From IMG/VR virus record IMGVR_UViG_3300046007_002436, positions 1 through 34,840 of that record: DNA of 34,840 bases; one strand, written 5' to 3'. Of this stretch, positions 1,420-15,446 are shown piece by piece. The translations under genes and the position numbers were made by a program. The number at the start of each line of letters is the position of its first letter. Positions within the stretch are counted from its first letter, which is position 1. The stretch is from a virus. The notes under the pieces are model-generated. The model searched no databases. It saw nothing but the letters and a program-made list of their open reading frames with translations, and had not been told where the DNA came from.

Positions 1420-2535
1420 TCAAGCTGCCTCTTGCAGTACCGACACCCAGATGCGACCTAGGCCTAGAAGAGGCAACACCCGATCCCTGAGATCCACATT
1501 GTGCAAGCGAATGCAGCCCAGGGTGGAATGCAGTGCTTGCCGTGGTGCCCATGCCCCTGGCCAGCCGCAAGCCGTGCCGCCACCATGAATCATGATTCCG
1601 TCCCTGCCGTAGCGGCTGCCTGGGCCTTCCTGCCCTTCCTGGCCCAACAGGTCGATTGAATACCAGCCATAGGCGCGGCGGATGGCGCTAAATGTTGCGG
1701 ATGGGTCCTGCTCATAGTCGCGGTAGACCTGGCCCACCAGGTACAGCCCTGGAGGTGTATCGCTGTTGGTTACCGTCCACTCCGATTCGCCCCTCTGCCC
1801 CCGGCACAGGCACGGCACAGACCACAGGCGTTTGCCGTCGTGGGTGAAGGCGGTGAGAGTTTCTAGGAGGTCATTGGCTAGAAGGTGATGGTCGCCAGGC
1901 TTGAGCGGTGGCCGCTTTTTAGGGCCGACCATCCCGGCTGGGACCGAGACGCCCTGCTGCTGAGCCGGTGGCCGTTGCTGTGTGGCTGACAGCCGCCCGG
2001 ACTGCACCAGCCCCCACACACGCTGCGCCTCGGCTTGGCGGCGGTCGAGATGCGGCACGCCGGGGCGGAAGTATCCGGTCCTGGTGGCAGCCGAACCGGT
2101 CCAGTATTCAGCGGCCTGTGCCGGTGTCATCCCCGCAGGCCGGTTCTCGAAGATCCGGGTCCAGCCGATCAGCGAACCCTGCGGTGGGTCGTGTAGGCCA
2201 GAGTACTCCTCAGCGAAATACTGCTGTTGCCAAGCATTGCTGTTCGGATCGACACCCCTGGCGACGGACGCAGATCGCGCCTTGTCGTAGGCGGTTCGCC
2301 GCACTCCGGTATATTGCATCGCTCCCCGGCCCGCACCGCTGCCTACTTCCACCACGTCGAGCTTGTCGAGCAGGGGGCGGCCCGTTTCGATGATGATGCA
2401 GCCGATGAATCCGCACGCCTCAGCTACGGTCAACGGGCTGATCTTGTTTCTACTGAGGCGCGGAACCTCCGGCCCCGTCAGGAATGTCAGCCATGACTGG
2501 ATATTAACCAGTTCATTTGTCTTTACTTCAGTCAT
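1420..2535 (-). CDS. Two-domain cell wall enzyme: lysozyme-like N-terminus plus L,D-transpeptidase (YkuD-type) C-terminus
   Basis: 371 residues. Residues about 30-180 resemble a lysozyme/chitinase-like glycosidase, with acidic candidates E50 and E63 in an ETG...EVGSGAGRGAMQYTG context. A Gln/Pro-rich linker (about 183-210) follows. Residues about 213-368 look like a YkuD catalytic domain: H317 in IMIHGGG, then S337-T-L-G-C341-I-R343, matching the His...Ser/Thr-x-GC-[IV]-R signature, with C341 as the nucleophile candidate. It lies directly after a small membrane protein and before the terminase, where T7-like phages carry lysis genes, so a role in host wall degradation at lysis is likely. A virion-borne enzyme is the alternative. 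No signal peptide is obvious, so export would need a holin. The gene is GC-rich compared with the next gene downstream. AAGGA lies 9 bases before the ATG. Confidence 0.75.
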   Translation of the reverse strand: MTEVKTNELVNIQSWLTFLTGPEVPRLSRNKISPLTVAEACGFIGCIIIETGRPLLDKLDVVEVGSGAGRGAMQYTGVRRTAYDKARSASVARGVDPNSNAWQQQYFAEEYSGLHDPPQGSLIGWTRIFENRPAGMTPAQAAEYWTGSAATRTGYFRPGVPHLDRRQAEAQRVWGLVQSGRLSATQQRPPAQQQGVSVPAGMVGPKKRPPLKPGDHHLLANDLLETLTAFTHDGKRLWSVPCLCRGQRGESEWTVTNSDTPPGLYLVGQVYRDYEQDPSATFSAIRRAYGWYSIDLLGQEGQEGPGSRYGRDGIMIHGGGTACGWPGAWAPRQALHSTLGCIRLHNVDLRDRVLPLLGLGRIWVSVLQEAA

Positions 2536-2788
2536 GATTTTGTTCCTTGGTAGTTTGAGTGGTCTGCTCGTCCCACTTGCGCATCAGCTGTAGAACCTCG
2601 TCAATCTTCTCACTATCCACTCTCTTTGCATCTCTCCCGAGCTTGCTTTTTTTGATCCCGAGAACAATGGCGTGGGTGATACCGTTGGCCTTTGTGGGAA
2701 GAAAGGGGAGAAGCTCATCAATGGCCAGTGCTGTGATTATGGCTACGATGGCTTCATAGGCAATAGTAATGCCAAATAGTTCAATCAT
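2528..2788 (-). CDS. Small membrane protein, holin candidate
   Basis: 86 residues with one N-terminal hydrophobic stretch (about residues 4-27), a second weaker hydrophobic part (about 35-44) and a strongly charged, hydrophilic C-terminal tail. No holin family is recognised by sequence. The call rests on size, topology and position: its 3' end overlaps by 8 bases the start of the cell wall enzyme gene, the usual holin-endolysin order, in the segment where T7 has its holin gene 17.5. The start has a GAGG ribosome-binding site about 7 bases upstream. It could instead be a membrane anchor unrelated to lysis. Confidence 0.5.
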   Translation of the reverse strand: MIELFGITIAYEAIVAIITALAIDELLPFLPTKANGITHAIVLGIKKSKLGRDAKRVDSEKIDEVLQLMRKWDEQTTQTTKEQNHD

Positions 2789-6561: not shown

Positions 6562-9500
6562 TCAATTCGGCATTGTTGTCAGTTTCTGCAAGACTGTTTC
6601 TCTGTTCCTCTTGCTGTATTCACCTTGACGGAAGTTACGCCGCATCTGAGCTGCTTCTTGCAGCCTCACACGGAAGTCCTCATTCTCTGAAGCCATAGCC
6701 ATCTGAGCTGCACGTCTCATGGAGTTGACCCGGCCTTGTATCAATTGAATGTGCGGGGGGGCGAGGCTAGGCTCATCCGGGTTGTATGGGCGCCTATCCC
6801 AGCTGTCACGAAGCTCCACGTACTCAGGGGTCTGGATCAACTCCTCCAGGGAGTCACGGAGGCCCATGTCGAACATGCGCTTGTGTAGCTCGTTCTTATC
6901 CTCAGGTGTCATCTCCATGCTCTGAGGGCCTCGATCAAAGTCCCTAAAGCCATAGCCATCATCAGACAGTGCCCACTTGAGGGGGTCCTCAGTTGGGGTG
7001 CTGATTCGGATGGGAGAGTTGGCGTTGAAGAATCCACCTGTAGCAGAGATGCCTGGCTCCCCGGTGAAGGGGTCAATTGAGAGGGCACCTGTGCTGACCA
7101 TACCAGCTGAAGCCTGCTCCCACACTCTATCTGACAGGCTCTTGTACTCCTTCCTGTAAGGACTGATCGTGTTAAAGATACCACGACGGAAGCCTGACAA
7201 GGGTAGGCTGTTGTTGATCAGGTTAGCCAACACTACTTCACGTTGTGATTCAGAGGTTCTAGGGTTGATCATCTCTGCAATGGCTTGCATACCAGCAAAG
7301 AACGATTTATCAGTCAAACCAGAGGCAATGGTAAATGCTGCGTATGCACCTAGATGGTGTCCAGCATCGTTGTACCCAAGCATGGCCAAGTTAACAGCAT
7401 CCGCTGTCATGCCAAGAATTGTGGCAGCAGGTTCAGATGAACTGAAGTCAATCAACTTTCCACCAACCTTCACTGTCAGGGGTCTGATTCCAGCTGCATC
7501 CCATGCAAGTTTTGCTCTGGATCCTGGAGGAGGGCCGTAGCCGTACAGGTTTCCACTGGCTGCGAGCATTGCTCCACCCATCACCATCATCATCCCTGTT
7601 CCAACTCGTCCCTCGTACACAGCTAGTTTGGCCTGTGCTTCTGGGTCTTTCGACTCCTTTGCAAGCCTAGCCACTTCAGCATAGTCTTTGGTGAATGCTT
7701 TGTTGAGGAATGGGGTGTGTTTACCAACGTACCTGAGAATCTCCGATGGTGTGTTCACAACAGGAACAAACCACTTAAGCACTGGAACAGCTTCAAGGAA
7801 CGAAGAGAACCTCTTAACTGCCTCAAATGGGTCACCCTGGAACGTACCCTGAGCAATCCACTCCTTGAGGTCATCATCCAGGATGCTCCCATCAGGTGCA
7901 ATCTTCTGGTTGAACTCACCTAGGGCCAGGTCAAACTTCTCTTTGAGGTTCCCACCATCCCGAGAGGCAACAAACATGCTCTCCTGATATGACCACTGAC
8001 GAAGCAGTAGATTTTGGAAAGCTTCATCCCCAGCAGTCAGTAAACGTGTAGGCCAACTGAACAACGGGTTAGCGGCAATGAACCTGTGCTGCAGCTTCAT
8101 GAAGTTAGCAGCCGCCTTTTCTGAGGGAGTCTTGGCTCGTGCAATCAGTTCAGCAATCTCGTCATCAGTCTTTGCATTGCTTACGTGATATTTACCATCT
8201 CCAGACAACTTGATGGATGCTGGGTCCTTCAGGGCCTTGGCTCCAGCCGTGAATGCCTCACCAAGTCCCATGACCAGGCCGTGCATCCCAGCCATGCTTG
8301 CTCGGATAGAGTGCTCATCGAGGTTGGTTACACCATAGATCATCGAAGACAAAGGCCGCTCAATGACGTTGTAGGCGTTACCGCTGATGTTCCTGAGCTG
8401 GGTGATAGGTCCACTGAAGATGCTGTTGATCATCACTGAGCCAGCATCCTTGATTCCCACCTTCCTGACAAGTTGCCAGAATGGGATGATCTTCTCAGGG
8501 TTACCTCCTGAAGCTCGGAGGGACGCAGCAATAGCCAAGATGTCCTGGCGTGCCTCTTCAACGTCTCCAGCCTTCCACTTGTCCTGGATGCTCTTCAGGG
8601 TCTGGAGGATGTCATCAAATCCATCCATGCCCTCATCACCTTTAGCCAGTAGGTTGATGTTTCCGGTCTGACGGTTGATGGGCAGGCCGAACATACGCAC
8701 CCTGCGACCAGCTCGTGAGGAGGTCTCCTTTGTGAGCCGGAGAGTGGCAGCCAGGTTGTCGATCATCCGATCCACAGTGTTGCCAAGTGGTTGACCTTCT
8801 TCGGTGAGTCGGATCACTTCATCAGCCAGTTTGGCGGCTTTCTCAGCTGTACTCTTGATGTAGGTCCTACCTACGATCACACCTGGATCATTGAATTGCT
8901 CAACCGTGATACCATCAGCTTGACGTACCTGCTCTACCAATCCACGCTTGCGGAAGGCTTCGATGGGCTTGTCAAGTGCAGACAGGTCGTCTCCGGTGAC
9001 TGACTCAAGGAGATCACGCTCAGCCTGCAAAGCGTCAGCCATGTTCTCTCGATCAGGCTTGAAGCGTGAGGCAGCGAACTCCTGGACCTCAGGACGGTTG
9101 ATGCCTGCATCGAGGATACGAGCAGCAGGGCCTTCCTGGAGCCCCAGGAGTTTGGTCTGAGCATCCGTCAGGACGGAGACAGTGCCAGTACGGGCCTTGA
9201 TGGCATCAGTGATGTCCACCGGCTCAAACGTGGCTGACCGTTCCTGAGGAAGCAGGTTGTAATCAGCGGGAGTGTACCCAGTGCTGATGTCTGCATCCAG
9301 GGAGCGGTTGAGGTTGATCAGGACTCTCTCTTGGGCATCGAGGTCTTCCTGCTTGCCAGGAGGTATAAGGTCTCCCATCTCCTCCAGTTCTTGACGCTGA
9401 ACAGCGATCTCATCGAGGCGTGCCTGGATGTCATCTTGGGAGCGAAGGGTAATATCAGCAAACAACTCGCTTTCACGGGTTGCGGCTTGTGCTACCTCAT

Positions 9501-10572
9501 CGGCAGCCTTGGTCATCTCCTCGTTGGCAGCCCTCAGGGCTTGCTGGAAAGCTTCAATTTTGTCCTGATTGCTTTTGGTTTTACCTCGCTTTCCAGGTAC
9601 AGGTGCGTCTGGGTCAGACTTGACTTCCCCTGTGGTTGACAGCGCGTAGGACTTCCTCGCAGCCTTGAGGCCACGAATTGCAACAGCTGCAGCCGCAGAG
9701 ATACCACTCCCCTCAAGGATAGCCTTGACTCGTGAACTCGCTGCCGTGTCGTCTTCGTCGCTGATCAAGTAGTCGATCAGTCCAAGGTTATCTTGGAGTT
9801 CCTCAGGAAGAAGCCCCTTGATCAGGCCAGTCAGGTTGGGGTCACCCTTTTTGGTGGTGATAATGTCTGCAATGCCGGATGACACTTCAGCCTTTATAGC
9901 CACACCTACCTTACCGGTGGCTTTAGGGAGTGCCCTCCAGGCGGTGCTCATTGTCGCCCCGAAGGTTACCAGATTCTGCGCAAACTTACCACCAGCAGTC
10001 TTAGGTACAAACACTCCTGTGTTCAGCCTAGGCTCCACATACTCTGGGTGGAATGGATTCTGAGAGGGATCGGTCTCAATCCCAACCGCATTCCTGCCTA
10101 CCATACGCACCACATCGGTGACCGCAGCCCCCGTGTCGATCACATTCTCCAGAGCACGCGCAGGGACACCACCAAGGACCCTCTTGGTCTCTGCAACCGC
10201 TGGGGTGGATGGACTGAGTGGCTGCGGTCCTCCTTGGGCCTTCCTGCGCCTCTGAGAGGCCTCTGCTTGCTGGACAGTGACAGGCTCCTTCCCGGCTGCG
10301 CCCCGGATCACGTTCCCAAGGGCATTACCGGCAGCCTTGGCACCCCACTCGACTTCGTTGGTCACCTTGTCGATGGCCTTGCCGATGGGCTCCAGGGGGT
10401 TGCTGGTCCTCTTGGCTCCGGGTTTCTTCTTGTTGGCTTCCTTCATCCGTTCTTCGGACGAGGGGCCTTTTGGACGAGGGGCTGGCCTCAGCTTCGCCTT
10501 CTCTTCCTCGGTCATTTCAGTAATGGGAGCCGGTTGGCCCCCAGTGATCTGAAGTGTCTTGTAGATAGACAT
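6562..10572 (-). CDS. Large internal virion (ejection) protein, gp16-like by position
   Basis: 1336 residues, the length expected of T7 gp16 (1318). A basic, Pro/Lys-rich N-terminus (residues 1-60) leads into Ala/Gly-rich helical segments, Glu/Gln-rich coiled-coil-like stretches (about 330-420) and hydrophobic segments in the C-terminal half (for example TGMMMVMGGAMLAASG, about residue 990). In T7 the corresponding protein is ejected into the cell and helps form the DNA channel. Unlike T7 gp16, I see no lytic transglycosylase motif in the N-terminal part; that activity appears to reside in the upstream ejection protein. Position between the 1162-residue protein (5-base gap) and the fibre gene supports the role. 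Confidence 0.75.
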   Translation of the reverse strand: MSIYKTLQITGGQPAPITEMTEEEKAKLRPAPRPKGPSSEERMKEANKKKPGAKRTSNPLEPIGKAIDKVTNEVEWGAKAAGNALGNVIRGAAGKEPVTVQQAEASQRRRKAQGGPQPLSPSTPAVAETKRVLGGVPARALENVIDTGAAVTDVVRMVGRNAVGIETDPSQNPFHPEYVEPRLNTGVFVPKTAGGKFAQNLVTFGATMSTAWRALPKATGKVGVAIKAEVSSGIADIITTKKGDPNLTGLIKGLLPEELQDNLGLIDYLISDEDDTAASSRVKAILEGSGISAAAAVAIRGLKAARKSYALSTTGEVKSDPDAPVPGKRGKTKSNQDKIEAFQQALRAANEEMTKAADEVAQAATRESELFADITLRSQDDIQARLDEIAVQRQELEEMGDLIPPGKQEDLDAQERVLINLNRSLDADISTGYTPADYNLLPQERSATFEPVDITDAIKARTGTVSVLTDAQTKLLGLQEGPAARILDAGINRPEVQEFAASRFKPDRENMADALQAERDLLESVTGDDLSALDKPIEAFRKRGLVEQVRQADGITVEQFNDPGVIVGRTYIKSTAEKAAKLADEVIRLTEEGQPLGNTVDRMIDNLAATLRLTKETSSRAGRRVRMFGLPINRQTGNINLLAKGDEGMDGFDDILQTLKSIQDKWKAGDVEEARQDILAIAASLRASGGNPEKIIPFWQLVRKVGIKDAGSVMINSIFSGPITQLRNISGNAYNVIERPLSSMIYGVTNLDEHSIRASMAGMHGLVMGLGEAFTAGAKALKDPASIKLSGDGKYHVSNAKTDDEIAELIARAKTPSEKAAANFMKLQHRFIAANPLFSWPTRLLTAGDEAFQNLLLRQWSYQESMFVASRDGGNLKEKFDLALGEFNQKIAPDGSILDDDLKEWIAQGTFQGDPFEAVKRFSSFLEAVPVLKWFVPVVNTPSEILRYVGKHTPFLNKAFTKDYAEVARLAKESKDPEAQAKLAVYEGRVGTGMMMVMGGAMLAASGNLYGYGPPPGSRAKLAWDAAGIRPLTVKVGGKLIDFSSSEPAATILGMTADAVNLAMLGYNDAGHHLGAYAAFTIASGLTDKSFFAGMQAIAEMINPRTSESQREVVLANLINNSLPLSGFRRGIFNTISPYRKEYKSLSDRVWEQASAGMVSTGALSIDPFTGEPGISATGGFFNANSPIRISTPTEDPLKWALSDDGYGFRDFDRGPQSMEMTPEDKNELHKRMFDMGLRDSLEELIQTPEYVELRDSWDRRPYNPDEPSLAPPHIQLIQGRVNSMRRAAQMAMASENEDFRVRLQEAAQMRRNFRQGEYSKRNRETVLQKLTTMPN

Positions 10573-10577
10573 TGTTT

Positions 10578-13500
10578 TTATCGAAGTGGATATTTCCTCA
10601 TCACACCATCGTATGCTCGCCGCAGCAAGCCGAGAATGTAACGGGGAACTGTACCGTTAGGGAATGCAAGGTGAATGTGCTCACCATGACCAGGATCACC
10701 TGGACCTAGAAGCTCTAGACCGTACTTGTTGGCAATAGGCATCCACGCATCCTTGAGGGCACGCTTCCTCTCTTGCCAGTAGCTCTTGGGCTCAGTCTTT
10801 GATCTCCAGTCTGTGATGTCGATGGCGCGATCGGAGTAGTGATGGGAGTTATCAGAGTGACCACCAACTTTGGCGTTACCCTTTCCGACATACCCACGCT
10901 GCTTGTCGAAGGCTGAATGCTCAGCAACACTTAGGCCTAGGCCGTGGAGCATCTTACCTACATCAACAATGGTGGCTAGAGTACCATCACCGGGATCTGG
11001 GCTGTTGCTTATGGCACGCTGATAACGCTCGCGTGCAAGCTTCAACATGGCTGCAGTTTGAGATGCAGGGATGGAGGCCCGATTACCGGCTAGGCCATTG
11101 TAACGGCTTCCTCCTGCTTTGTTCTTCAGAACTGCCCACTCATCTGATGCCTCATTGACAGCTCCAACCAGGTCGTTGCTCTGACCCTTGATGTATGCAG
11201 ACAGTGTGGGACGTTGACCATTGAGCAGTAGGGCAGCGCCGAGTCGATCTTGAACTTCAGGAGTCATCCTGTCATCCATAGACACACCAGATCCACGGAC
11301 AGCAAGCTCCATAGTTCCACCAATGATCTGGTAACGACCGAAGGCATTGATGATCCCCCTCTTTTGGAGGCTAATCACTTCACGCACTGTTAGCTGGTCT
11401 GCTGTCTTGCCGGTAATGGATTGGATGCCTCCTCGTGTGTCGTCAGAGACCCTACGGTTCACCGCATTGTATCCTTGGGCTCCAGCCTCGGGACCAGCGA
11501 TCATGTCAAGGATTGGACGAACAGCTTCAACCTCAAAGTCCCCACCACCTTCACTTCGATCAATCACCACCTCACCATTGACCAGTTGAACCTTACCCAT
11601 GTTGGCCAGTTTGGTCTGAGCTACAGCACCCTTGCTCTGCATTTCCAAGAACTGACGGGTCCGCATGAACCTCTCGTAGCCATAGGCACGCCTCTGCTCT
11701 GGGAGTCGTGGGAGTACCTGTAGCTGTGCTTCCTGTGGGTTGATGAGGCTCTGCTGTTGCATCTGAATAACAACTGGGAGCTGCTGTATGGGGGCTGTAT
11801 CCATGCCGTTGACTTTTGCTTGCTGTGTGAGTACGCTGTGTGCTGGAAGACCTGTGACATTGACGATGCCCTGAACTCGTGGAGTTGGCAGCTGACCTTG
11901 GGAGATACGCTGTATGTTCTCCTCCAGTTCAGTGGTAGCAACAGTCGCGTCTTGCCTCACATTGGGGAGTGTTAGGGCTTGTGGTACAATACCTCTCGCA
12001 TCGGAGGATCTACCGGTTGGGGAGTTGGGGTTACGAACAGTTGAAGTGATGCGATTACTGAAGTCAACAGGGAATCCATCAAACAGTATTTCTCGCTTAC
12101 CATCTGCTCCTATGGCCCCCTCCTTGGTCTTGACTTGGTATGCTGGATCCTTTAGTGCTGTCCCAATGTACTTGAGTGCCTCTGCCTGTATAGCTGATGC
12201 AGATGGTACAACCTTTTGACTGTTAATCCAGTTGGACAAATGCAGCATGGTCTCTGCTGTTAGGGTTTCAACCCTTGCACGTCCACCACCTCCAGTCTTC
12301 TGGATTGTATCTAAGCCTGCACCTTGGATAATGGCTCTTGTAAACTCGGCTGTTGCCAAACCTTTAATCGAGGATTCCTGAGCTTTGATTACCTCATTAC
12401 CGGCGTTGAGTGGACGCTTGCTTCTGAAGAAGTCTGCCTGGGCATTGGTCAGCTGACCATCAAGCATCATCTGCTCAAGGCGATCTTCCGATGGAATCTC
12501 TCCTGTCTTTTCCCAGGTATCGACAACCGCTTCAAAGGCATTCTCTGAGGCAGTAATAGGACGTGTGTTGAAGTCCTGCAGCTCTTGCTGTGCCCTAGGG
12601 CTGTTGGCTTCAGACAGTTTGCCCAGCTGAGTCTTGTACCACGTATTGGCTTCAACGATCTTGTTGGGATCGCTTCCTGCTGCTTTCAATCGCTCTTGAT
12701 GCTCAAGTTTGAGTTGAGGTACAAGGCTGTCGGCAGCTTCGATGGCCATCCGAACGTTGCTACGATCCTCTGCTTCAAGGCTATCGTAGGATTCACGGAA
12801 TGCAGCTTGATACCTGGGATGCTCTCCCCATGATCCGAGTCCAGGCTGCTCGTTGCTGACATTGGATCTCTCCAGTTGAGCCAATAACTCAGGGTCTCCC
12901 ACACGTACAGCATAGCTGAGTACAGCTGGTATAAGTACGTCATTGGCCTCCCTGTTACTTAGACCTGTGGCTCTCAATGCAGTGGTTTTGGAGTTGATCC
13001 ATTCAGTCATCCCATAGAAGTCATCCTTGCCTATGCCAGCCGCTTCTACACCAATACTGAGTGTGATGTCCTCCCTTTCCTGCTCTTGCTGTTGCTTCCT
13101 ATTCTCATTGATTACCCTTTCAGCCGTCTGGGCATTGACCTCAGTGGATCTAGGGTACAGGTGTTCAGCCAGGATTGCTGGGTTGACATTTTTTAGTCCA
13201 GCATTCTCAAGTAGGAATGCAGCCCCAGCATTGATTGCCGCAAACGTCTCCGCAGAGCCACGGGCAGCCAGCTCCTTGGGACTGATCATCTGACCAGGAT
13301 TCAGGGGATCTGGGATGATCTTCTCATCTGAGTTTATCCAGGTGTTGATGCCTACCTGCCACTCGGCAGCCATCTTTCTGGTGGCGCCAACAGCACGATA
13401 GTAGGCTCTCCAGCTTCTCCTGATAGGAGACTTCTTTCGCTGGTCTTCAGCCTGGATAGCATCAGTCTGAGCCAGCACCTCATTAGCCTGCCCTTCAGCC

Positions 13501-14066
13501 GCTGCAGCTGCCCCTAGGACTTTTCCAGCTTGGATGACAGTTTCCTGATCTTCAATTGGCATCCCCTCAGAAGCACCAAGGGCAAGACCTATGCCTTTCT
13601 CCTTGTTGATGTAGGCCAGCTCCTGGTCCCTGATGATACTAGCTGCAGTTTCAGAGATAGCAGCAAACGACTTGAGGTTCTGGTCACGTACCTCAGCATT
13701 GAGCCGTAGGGACCGTTGCCTGATGTCCTGATCTACAGCTCGTGTTTGTTCAGCCTGCCGAAGGCCAAGCTCTTGTCCCCTCAGGAACGTCTCGTTGCTG
13801 AATTGTTGGGCACGTTGGAAGTCATCCAGGCGAGAACGAAGGAACCTCTCATTGGCTGCATCGTTCTGCCTGAGTGATCTTGAGAATGTTTCTACCTGGA
13901 ACTCACCTGTAGAAGCGGCGGCAGCCTGGGAACTTTCAAGTGCCCGGTTGTCAGTCCGTTGTTGTACTTCTCCAGCTCGCTCCAGGCTTCTGTTGAAGTC
14001 AGCCTGTTGCTTGGCTGCAGCACCTGAACGGTCAACCGCAGCGACCGTGATTTTACCAGTTGCCAT
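10578..14066 (-). CDS. Internal virion protein (gp15-like position) with C-terminal muramidase-like and M15 peptidase-like domains
   Basis: 1162 residues. Residues 1-830 are mostly helical and Gln/Glu/Ala-rich, typical of podovirus ejection proteins. Residues about 845-990 resemble a phage muramidase/lysozyme domain: PEAG with E860, YNAVN, then NAFGRYQIIGGT and TPEVQDRLGAALLL. Residues about 1025-1150 match the zinc D,D-/L,D-peptidase M15 pattern: S1074-x-H1076-x6-D1083 in SHHYSDRAID and E1129-x2-H1132 in GEHIHL, the same spacing as VanX (H116-x6-D123, E181-x2-H184). The SxHxxGxAxD glycine is Asp here. The protein should be ejected and cut peptidoglycan locally for DNA entry. Ten bases separate it from the 456-residue protein gene upstream. 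Confidence 0.8.
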   Translation of the reverse strand: MATGKITVAAVDRSGAAAKQQADFNRSLERAGEVQQRTDNRALESSQAAAASTGEFQVETFSRSLRQNDAANERFLRSRLDDFQRAQQFSNETFLRGQELGLRQAEQTRAVDQDIRQRSLRLNAEVRDQNLKSFAAISETAASIIRDQELAYINKEKGIGLALGASEGMPIEDQETVIQAGKVLGAAAAAEGQANEVLAQTDAIQAEDQRKKSPIRRSWRAYYRAVGATRKMAAEWQVGINTWINSDEKIIPDPLNPGQMISPKELAARGSAETFAAINAGAAFLLENAGLKNVNPAILAEHLYPRSTEVNAQTAERVINENRKQQQEQEREDITLSIGVEAAGIGKDDFYGMTEWINSKTTALRATGLSNREANDVLIPAVLSYAVRVGDPELLAQLERSNVSNEQPGLGSWGEHPRYQAAFRESYDSLEAEDRSNVRMAIEAADSLVPQLKLEHQERLKAAGSDPNKIVEANTWYKTQLGKLSEANSPRAQQELQDFNTRPITASENAFEAVVDTWEKTGEIPSEDRLEQMMLDGQLTNAQADFFRSKRPLNAGNEVIKAQESSIKGLATAEFTRAIIQGAGLDTIQKTGGGGRARVETLTAETMLHLSNWINSQKVVPSASAIQAEALKYIGTALKDPAYQVKTKEGAIGADGKREILFDGFPVDFSNRITSTVRNPNSPTGRSSDARGIVPQALTLPNVRQDATVATTELEENIQRISQGQLPTPRVQGIVNVTGLPAHSVLTQQAKVNGMDTAPIQQLPVVIQMQQQSLINPQEAQLQVLPRLPEQRRAYGYERFMRTRQFLEMQSKGAVAQTKLANMGKVQLVNGEVVIDRSEGGGDFEVEAVRPILDMIAGPEAGAQGYNAVNRRVSDDTRGGIQSITGKTADQLTVREVISLQKRGIINAFGRYQIIGGTMELAVRGSGVSMDDRMTPEVQDRLGAALLLNGQRPTLSAYIKGQSNDLVGAVNEASDEWAVLKNKAGGSRYNGLAGNRASIPASQTAAMLKLARERYQRAISNSPDPGDGTLATIVDVGKMLHGLGLSVAEHSAFDKQRGYVGKGNAKVGGHSDNSHHYSDRAIDITDWRSKTEPKSYWQERKRALKDAWMPIANKYGLELLGPGDPGHGEHIHLAFPNGTVPRYILGLLRRAYDGVMRKYPLR

Positions 14067-14075
14067 GTTGTTCTA

Positions 14076-15446
14076 CTATGGAGGTGTTATGGGTGTTGCT
14101 GCGGGTGGTCTGGCGTTGTAGGCTTGTATGCCACTTTGAGCTGCACCTAAGATCCCCTGAAGGAGGAGACCACCAGATGCGCTGGCTGAGGTGAATCCTT
14201 GCTGACCAAGTACAGGCATAGGAGCCCGAATCGGCCTTGCTGGGATGATGGCCCGGTTCGCCCGTGTTGCAGCCAACGGAATCGGAGCCTGGAATGGCTG
14301 AGGCAAGAACGAGCGAGGAGTCTGAAGAGGATCCAAGATTTGAACCTGATCCAGTGGCCTCAGCACACGGTTCGATTCAGCTTGGTTCATCTGACTCATG
14401 GCCTGTAGCCTGGTGTCGGCCAAGTTGTTATTTGCTTCAAAGATTCCTTCACGTTCCCGCAGGTTGTTCTCGGTCAGTGAGAGGTTGGCCAGGGTAGCCT
14501 CAGATTGGAGCCGGATGTTCAGCTGCTCCCTCTCCGCATCCGTGAGGGTGCTCTGGAGGTTGGTTGCAGCAGCCAGTTTGAGCAACTCGGACTGTCTCTC
14601 CTCACCAAAGAACGCCAGCTCGATCCCCAGCACACCAAGGGCAAGGGAGGCCTGGTTAAGGGGGTCCTGTATGAGGCGGTTGGCGCTCTGCCCTTGACGG
14701 CCCGTAGCTGCCGCCTGGGCGCCCCTGGAAGAGGCCTCCCGCCGGGTCTGGTCCTGAGTGGCCGTGAACTGCTTCATTCGCTGCCTGACGGCCTTCTGGA
14801 GGTCTTCCCCGGAAAGGCCAGCCTGCTTCAGTTCGTTGGCGAAGCGTGCCTCCTGAGCCTTGGCCTGATTGATGGCCTGCTTCTTGCTCTGGTTGAAACC
14901 TTCTTGAACCTGACCACGTTGGATGGCTAATCCAGCTCTCTCAAACTTGAGCCTCTCCGTGATGTAGCTGTAAGACTGAGCTGCAGCTGCCGCAATGAGT
15001 TGGGTGTTCTGAGAGTAGGTCCTCTCCGATTGCTCAAACTGGCGAATCTGAGCCCGCTGATCAGCAGCTTGAAGAGTTCGCTGGAAGTCTACATCTCTCT
15101 GGTTCTGAGCATTGACGGAGAGGTTCTGGATGTCAAGATTGGTGCTGCGTATAATCCAATCAGCAGCGTCAACACCATTCTGAGATCGCCATGATTGTAA
15201 GGCTACAGCCCTTTCCAGGTCACGACTCATCCGAGCCGAAGCTACAGCAAAGTCGTAAGTGAGATCGGTTTGGGCCTCATTGAGTTGCCAGCTACCTACC
15301 TGGGTATTGAAACTTTCGATGCGCTGCTGATTTGCATTGCGGCGAGCATCCTCTTCCGCGTCCCTGGCTGAGTTAGCGCCGAAGATCCCACTTACTATAC
15401 TGCCAACAGCTTGCGCCCCAGCTATTGCCAAACTTACTGGTTCCAT
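14076..15446 (-). CDS. Internal virion protein, gp14-like position
   Basis: 456 residues. It starts with a hydrophobic, glycine/alanine-rich segment (residues 3-25, IAGAQAVGSIVSGIFG) often seen in gp14-type proteins that insert in the outer membrane during ejection. The remainder to about residue 360 is a long Gln/Arg/Glu/Ala-rich helical region with coiled-coil character, then a Pro-rich tail. T7 gp14 is 196 residues, so this one is more than twice as long. Position between tail tubular protein B and the two giant ejection proteins matches T7 gene 14. The function follows from position and the N-terminus, not from a catalytic motif. Confidence 0.7.
   Translation of the reverse strand: MEPVSLAIAGAQAVGSIVSGIFGANSARDAEEDARRNANQQRIESFNTQVGSWQLNEAQTDLTYDFAVASARMSRDLERAVALQSWRSQNGVDAADWIIRSTNLDIQNLSVNAQNQRDVDFQRTLQAADQRAQIRQFEQSERTYSQNTQLIAAAAAQSYSYITERLKFERAGLAIQRGQVQEGFNQSKKQAINQAKAQEARFANELKQAGLSGEDLQKAVRQRMKQFTATQDQTRREASSRGAQAAATGRQGQSANRLIQDPLNQASLALGVLGIELAFFGEERQSELLKLAAATNLQSTLTDAEREQLNIRLQSEATLANLSLTENNLREREGIFEANNNLADTRLQAMSQMNQAESNRVLRPLDQVQILDPLQTPRSFLPQPFQAPIPLAATRANRAIIPARPIRAPMPVLGQQGFTSASASGGLLLQGILGAAQSGIQAYNARPPAATPITPP

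Follow-up and report, generated by a model that had tools for sequence, protein, structure and literature searches.

A phage-type YkuD domain joined to wall glycosidases in cyanophage lysins

What might a domain with an L,D-transpeptidase motif do when it shares one phage polypeptide with a lysozyme-like domain? The question is raised by a gene of IMG/VR record IMGVR_UViG_3300046007_002436, of which the whole 34,840-base stretch was examined and is called the window here. By gene content, the window virus is a T7-like podovirus: profile matches identified RNA polymerase, primase/helicase, DNA polymerase and ribonucleotide reductase genes, together with those for a head-tail adaptor, the major head protein, tail proteins and an internal virion protein, and the tail fibre has a T7-type N-terminus. 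The virus is a cyanophage, infecting cyanobacteria. The gene in question comes after the tail fibre region, and its features and those of its neighbour, all on the minus strand, are as follows.

1420-2535 (-): two-domain lysin, lysozyme2-linker-YkuD, 371 aa (ATG start, open frame; Pfam)
2014-2430 (-): lysozyme-like domain Phage_lysozyme2, residues 36-174 (Pfam, below the cut-off alone; relatives above it)
2386-2388 (-): E50 codon, likely acid, Glu of 'ETG'
2347-2349 (-): E63 codon, Glu of 'VVE'
1936-1989 (-): Gln/Pro-rich linker, residues about 183-200 (sequence; pLDDT)
1423-1935 (-): YkuD catalytic domain, residues 201-371 (Pfam PF03734; Foldseek)
1585-1587 (-): catalytic His317 (invariant in 53 distinct viral domains)
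1525-1578 (-): family-specific loop, residues 320-337, GWPGAWxPxQ, between the His and Cys strands (invariant core)
1507-1524 (-): catalytic motif T338-L-G-C341-I-R343 (fits (S/T)XGC-hydrophobic-R)
2528-2788 (-): 86-aa protein with a hydrophobic N-terminus, holin candidate (hydropathy; overlaps the lysin start by 8 bases)

The window lysin, its domains and its relatives

The sequence-only reading of the window had described a lysozyme-like region joined to a YkuD domain in one protein, and both domains are supported by Pfam and by homologs. A domain search for YkuD similarity, set beforehand as the refuting test, gave a match to PF03734 above the Pfam cut-off (residues 226-350, E 1.1e-5, 26.5 bits against 23.4), and scores in relatives reach 37.9 bits. 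The match to Phage_lysozyme2 (PF18013, residues 36-174, E 9.3e-5) lies below its cut-off, at 23.1 against 28.2 bits, but we take this half to be real because homologous domains pass that cut-off, namely those of S-CBP2_0051, S-CBP42_0023, P60 gp47 (51.0 bits) and the loci L017 (29.3) and L098 (29.7). The Glu residues corresponding to E50 and E63 are also present in S-CBP2, S-CBP42 and P60. PHROGs and NCBIfam gave no match to the window lysin, and phmmer and YkuD-profile searches of PDB sequences returned guanylate cyclase noise only, with no true match.

His317, Cys341, Arg343 and the S-T-L-G-C-I-R string were found at the residues that reading had assigned to them, and the motif agrees with the published L,D-transpeptidase consensus, (S/T)XGC-hydrophobic-R (PMC12729407). 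The proposed Gln/Pro linker likewise lies between the halves, and it is here that confidence in the AlphaFold model is low (pLDDT < 50 at residues 186-193). With 49 sequences as input, the model reached a pLDDT of only 70.7; a second one that also drew on genome and phage relatives reached 85.6. The PDB neighbours of the latter model, found using Foldseek, include B. subtilis YkuD, Pgp2, Bd1075, LdtMt2, Tlde1a and DpaA, and among the 50 PDB matches listed all are YkuD-type enzymes; the TM-scores are modest because the whole 371-aa two-domain chain was compared. His317, Thr338, Gly340, Cys341 and Arg343 are invariant in 53 distinct viral domains, and of 87 further copies 86 retain the T-x-G-C-x-R motif, the exception (L113) looking degenerate. 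Judged by the top Foldseek matches and this invariance, the predicted YkuD fold and its motif are far beyond chance. The same two results speak against the other refuting condition set beforehand, a Cys341 buried away from His317. The phage-type domain has a His-to-Cys spacing of 24, compared with 16-20 in three canonical host YkuD genes.

A scan of IMG/VR viral contigs with the window protein gave 247 relatives, and scans with two phage relatives as queries gave 17 and 259, sets that may overlap. Identical (100%) copies of the lysin occur in two other IMG/VR contigs, and a dozen more contigs carry copies at about 75-88% identity. The cultured Synechococcus phages found by tblastn in 50,697 GenBank phage records to have a phage-type YkuD are only S-CRM01, S-CBS4 and B23. 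The earlier statement that YkuD enzymes are rarely part of phage lysis genes thus holds for isolates (three in 50,697 phage records), but not for related IMG/VR contigs, with some 250 relatives in each of two scans. The survey of cyanophage lysin loci which that reading had proposed shows that YkuD-glycosidase fusion or adjacency recurs, in hundreds of IMG/VR contigs and in the three Synechococcus phages.

YkuD domains have been recorded before in phage lytic proteins. The part of the PhaLP report available to us lists YkuD in ten such proteins, in the peptidase group and without a tested function (PMC8310338), and the available part of a gut-phage survey lists one GH25-choline-binding-YkuD protein in the same manner (PMC13284279); in these lytic proteins, as in the window lysin, YkuD is one of the catalytic domains. 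Cyanophage Mic1 gp80 carries an L,D-transpeptidase annotation, is expressed late and has a proposed role in lysis (PMC11237433). Mic1 is absent from the tblastn matches of the window-type domain at E up to 5, so it represents at most a distant lineage, if it is in the collection. A close parallel is S-CBS4 gp063, a GH73-YkuD protein annotated as an endolysin / N-acetylmuramidase, in which the YkuD domain is approximately 57% identical and is likewise fused to a wall glycosidase; its partner, however, is a glucosaminidase, and the annotation omits the YkuD half. YkuD in phage lytic proteins is therefore already known, rarely and without function, and what is new here is a well-populated, widespread family with four glycosidase partners and informative domain swaps.

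Exchange of glycosidase partners and of peptidase domains

Four unrelated wall glycosidases, lysozyme2, GH24, GH73 and GH19, occur either in fusion with phage-type YkuD domains or next to them, the partner counts among the fetched loci mirroring locus sampling rather than frequencies. Fusions to lysozyme2 occur with or without a helical module of 45 aa, and where the partner is GH19 the YkuD domain sits N-terminal to it. Split forms also exist, with adjoining genes for YkuD and then lysozyme2 (L067, L069 and eight genome loci), or for YkuD and then helical module-GH24 (L140-L143), and some relatives (L035, L065) encode YkuD in a frame that lacks a glycosidase. A tree of 126 YkuD domains, made by a quick method and with many open forks, places the window copy with other lysozyme2 fusions inside a GH24-dominated set, and the partner label needs 13 changes when partnerless copies are counted as one state. 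The nested position and these label changes argue that the domain has repeatedly acquired, lost or swapped its partners.

In S-CRM01 (L080:2219-3528), g113 encodes one portion of GH24 and the beginning of g112, the gene that carries the YkuD domain, encodes the rest. The two frames overlap by one base; this is either a split GH24-YkuD or a sequencing frameshift. The helical module, of approximately 45 residues with the pattern PHQxAAWxxL...EF...YR (L022:5347-5511, L083:1345-1485, L082:3001-4263), is common to cyanophage lysins with GH24, GH19, lysozyme2, C39 and YkuD domains. It had no Pfam match in the proteins scanned, is a candidate wall-binding domain and is absent from the window lysin.

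The partner of the module can be a C39 peptidase. S-CBP2_0045, annotated as a lysozyme/endolysin, consists of the helical module and C39, and has relatives in 111 phage records. Such C39 endolysins (PHROG 10051) share with the YkuD lysins the helical module, the GH24 and GH73 partners and the slot, but carry C39 instead of YkuD. IMG/VR contig G223 encodes helical module-GH24-C39 in a single frame of 393 aa, and the same module-GH24 frame carries YkuD in other contigs. In the profile of PHROG 10051 ('endolysin'), positions 82-227 match the GH73 half of the S-CBS4 protein, and positions 228-453 match module-C39 of S-CBP2. Of 29 records with a phage-type YkuD lysin, G223 was the only one in which a C39 lysin was found as well; the other 28 include the window and the complete S-CRM01, S-CBS4 and B23 genomes as well as IMG/VR records that may be fragments. 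YkuD and C39 are thus alternates in one lysin slot. This natural exchange on the same GH24/GH73 frame makes the question of a transpeptidase fold in lysis directly testable.

In two further loci (L016 and L017; L017:6559-7146), the same lysozyme2 N-terminus is followed by a C-terminal domain of another type in place of YkuD. That domain has no Pfam match, and its weak match to C39 (hhalign E 0.0016, probability 16%) was set aside as evidence.

Possible roles of the YkuD half

We consider it rather likely that the window protein is an endolysin with two catalytic domains, in which the YkuD half would target the L,D bond within stem peptides, and this half probably helps to burst the host. A lytic role is favoured because the catalytic partners, where present, are wall glycosidases, because YkuD alternates with C39 and because the GH73-YkuD protein of S-CBS4 is annotated as an endolysin. 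Of the options offered earlier from the sequence (cutting, remodelling of the wall on entry or a block to superinfection), the comparative evidence favours lytic cutting, whereas the other two gained no support here. Compared with the properties of an endolysin gene, the glycosidase domain and the position after the tail genes fit, and the adjacent holin is a candidate only. The 86-aa protein suggested for that function does have a hydrophobic N-terminus, but it matches PHROG 15106, of unknown function, and its homologs among the fetched loci are confined to near-identical contigs.

In the YkuD fold, the Cys-His pair attacks the carbonyl at the L-centre of mDAP and D-Ala leaves, after which the acyl-enzyme reacts with an acceptor amine or with water (PMC12729407). 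In the window lysin, a holin would let the protein, which has no evident signal peptide, through the inner membrane, and the lysozyme half would cut the glycan chains. The nucleophile of the YkuD half would be Cys341, activated by His317, and its target the L,D bond that joins meso-diaminopimelate to D-alanine in stem peptides, the donor stems of 4-3 cross-links among them, and resolution of the acyl-enzyme by water or a small amine would mean that cross-links are lost, not made. Both cuts together would collapse the wall, and the YkuD domains scattered among phage lytic proteins would gain a testable role.

Known activities of YkuD enzymes include those of the L,D-endopeptidase LdtCd2, the L,D-carboxypeptidases Pgp2 and Bd1075 and the toxin Tlde1a (PMC12729407, PMC8938487, PMC9638812). 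These enzymes and Csd6 have the predicted fold and Cys-His catalysis of the window domain in common with it but, unlike the lysin, are cellular or secretion-system proteins. Two positions after the catalytic Cys, most L,D-transpeptidases have Arg, whereas the hydrolases Csd6, Pgp2, YafK/DpaA and Bd1075 have Ala or Val (PMC8938487). The hydrolase-type Ala or Val is not what we found, Arg343 being invariant in the 53 distinct viral domains, and Csd6, Pgp2 and Bd1075 lack the Arg that window-type domains keep. By this residue the active site resembles those of transpeptidases, which counts against a plain hydrolase, and it is because of Arg343 that the lytic role is better supported than the exact chemistry. 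Also against the two-cut reading are the relatives that have YkuD without a glycosidase in frame and the candidate status of the holin. No activity data or functional study for phage-type YkuD members came up in the literature searched.

The same Arg, with the intact (S/T)XGC-R motif, also fits an unlikely explanation, that the YkuD half is a true L,D-transpeptidase during infection, adding 3-3 cross-links or swapping terminal residues. It would then keep the cell intact up to lysis, close the wall again once the phage has entered or impede other phages. Some viral contigs have standalone YkuD copies, and all six of the genomes checked that hold a phage-type domain also have YkuD genes of the canonical kind, which makes it probable that hosts have the substrate chemistry. 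However, the phage domain is fused to wall-cutting enzymes, in lysin genes, where it alternates with C39; making and cutting within one polypeptide would counteract each other, and early periplasmic action is difficult to reconcile with the lack of an evident signal peptide.

Still less probable is that the protein is a virion component that opens the wall when the phage enters. Its N-terminal Pfam family is named 'Phage tail lysozyme' and the tail genes lie upstream of its gene, but large internal virion proteins are already encoded at 6562-15446 of the window, this type of YkuD domain occurs elsewhere in fusion with GH24 and GH73 endolysin domains, and no tail-attachment domain was seen. That YkuD is a non-catalytic wall-binding module merely anchoring the glycosidase is very improbable, for although it lies C-terminal to the glycosidase, a frequent place of binding domains, and the possible wall binder of relatives is missing from the window protein, none of the catalytic residues His, Cys, Thr and Arg varies among 53 distinct viral copies, the helical module is already there as a separate unit in many relatives, and the slot is shared with a peptidase.

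Returning to the two-cut endolysin, a broader history can be proposed tentatively, and with less confidence than the lytic role itself: a transpeptidase-type YkuD, Arg included, may have become the peptide-cutting half of lysins across several tailed cyanophage groups, replacing C39, and host lineages may have kept lone GH24-YkuD copies in their chromosomes. If this is true, lysis would run by diverting cross-linking chemistry.

Phage-type YkuD genes in cyanobacterial genomes

Phage-type YkuD domains without an evident signal peptide also occur in freshwater Cyanobium, Vulcanococcus, Synechococcus and Acaryochloris genomes. Across 201 Cyanobiaceae genomes, 105 have YkuD and 96 do not, the negatives listed being mostly small genomes. 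The family also points to lysin-like genes kept in freshwater picocyanobacterial chromosomes. In the loci checked, a GH24-YkuD gene of 470 aa lies among ordinary chromosomal genes, such as those for a Na/Ca exchanger and a sulfate permease (L092:3083-4513; G001:C1:321000-360999), and the same protein is found in about a dozen freshwater picocyanobacterial genomes. No phage genes were recognised within approximately 20 kb of it at the one locus read, and it is possibly a domesticated lysin.

In many Cyanobium-type genomes, a conserved string of genes close to a GP7-type major head gene encodes YkuD and a one-helix membrane protein, together with lysozyme2 in some but not all cases (for example, L098:3794-5398, L121:1608-2510 and G002:C9:127773-144860). 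The string is a prophage-like or gene-transfer-agent-like cluster, and because it accompanies a phage-type major head gene we assign this genomic form of YkuD to a prophage-like cluster. Two of the IMG/VR contigs, L067 and L069, have the YkuD-lysozyme2 string and neighbouring frames in common with these loci of Cyanobium-type genomes. Both may be host or prophage-like DNA that was classified as viral.
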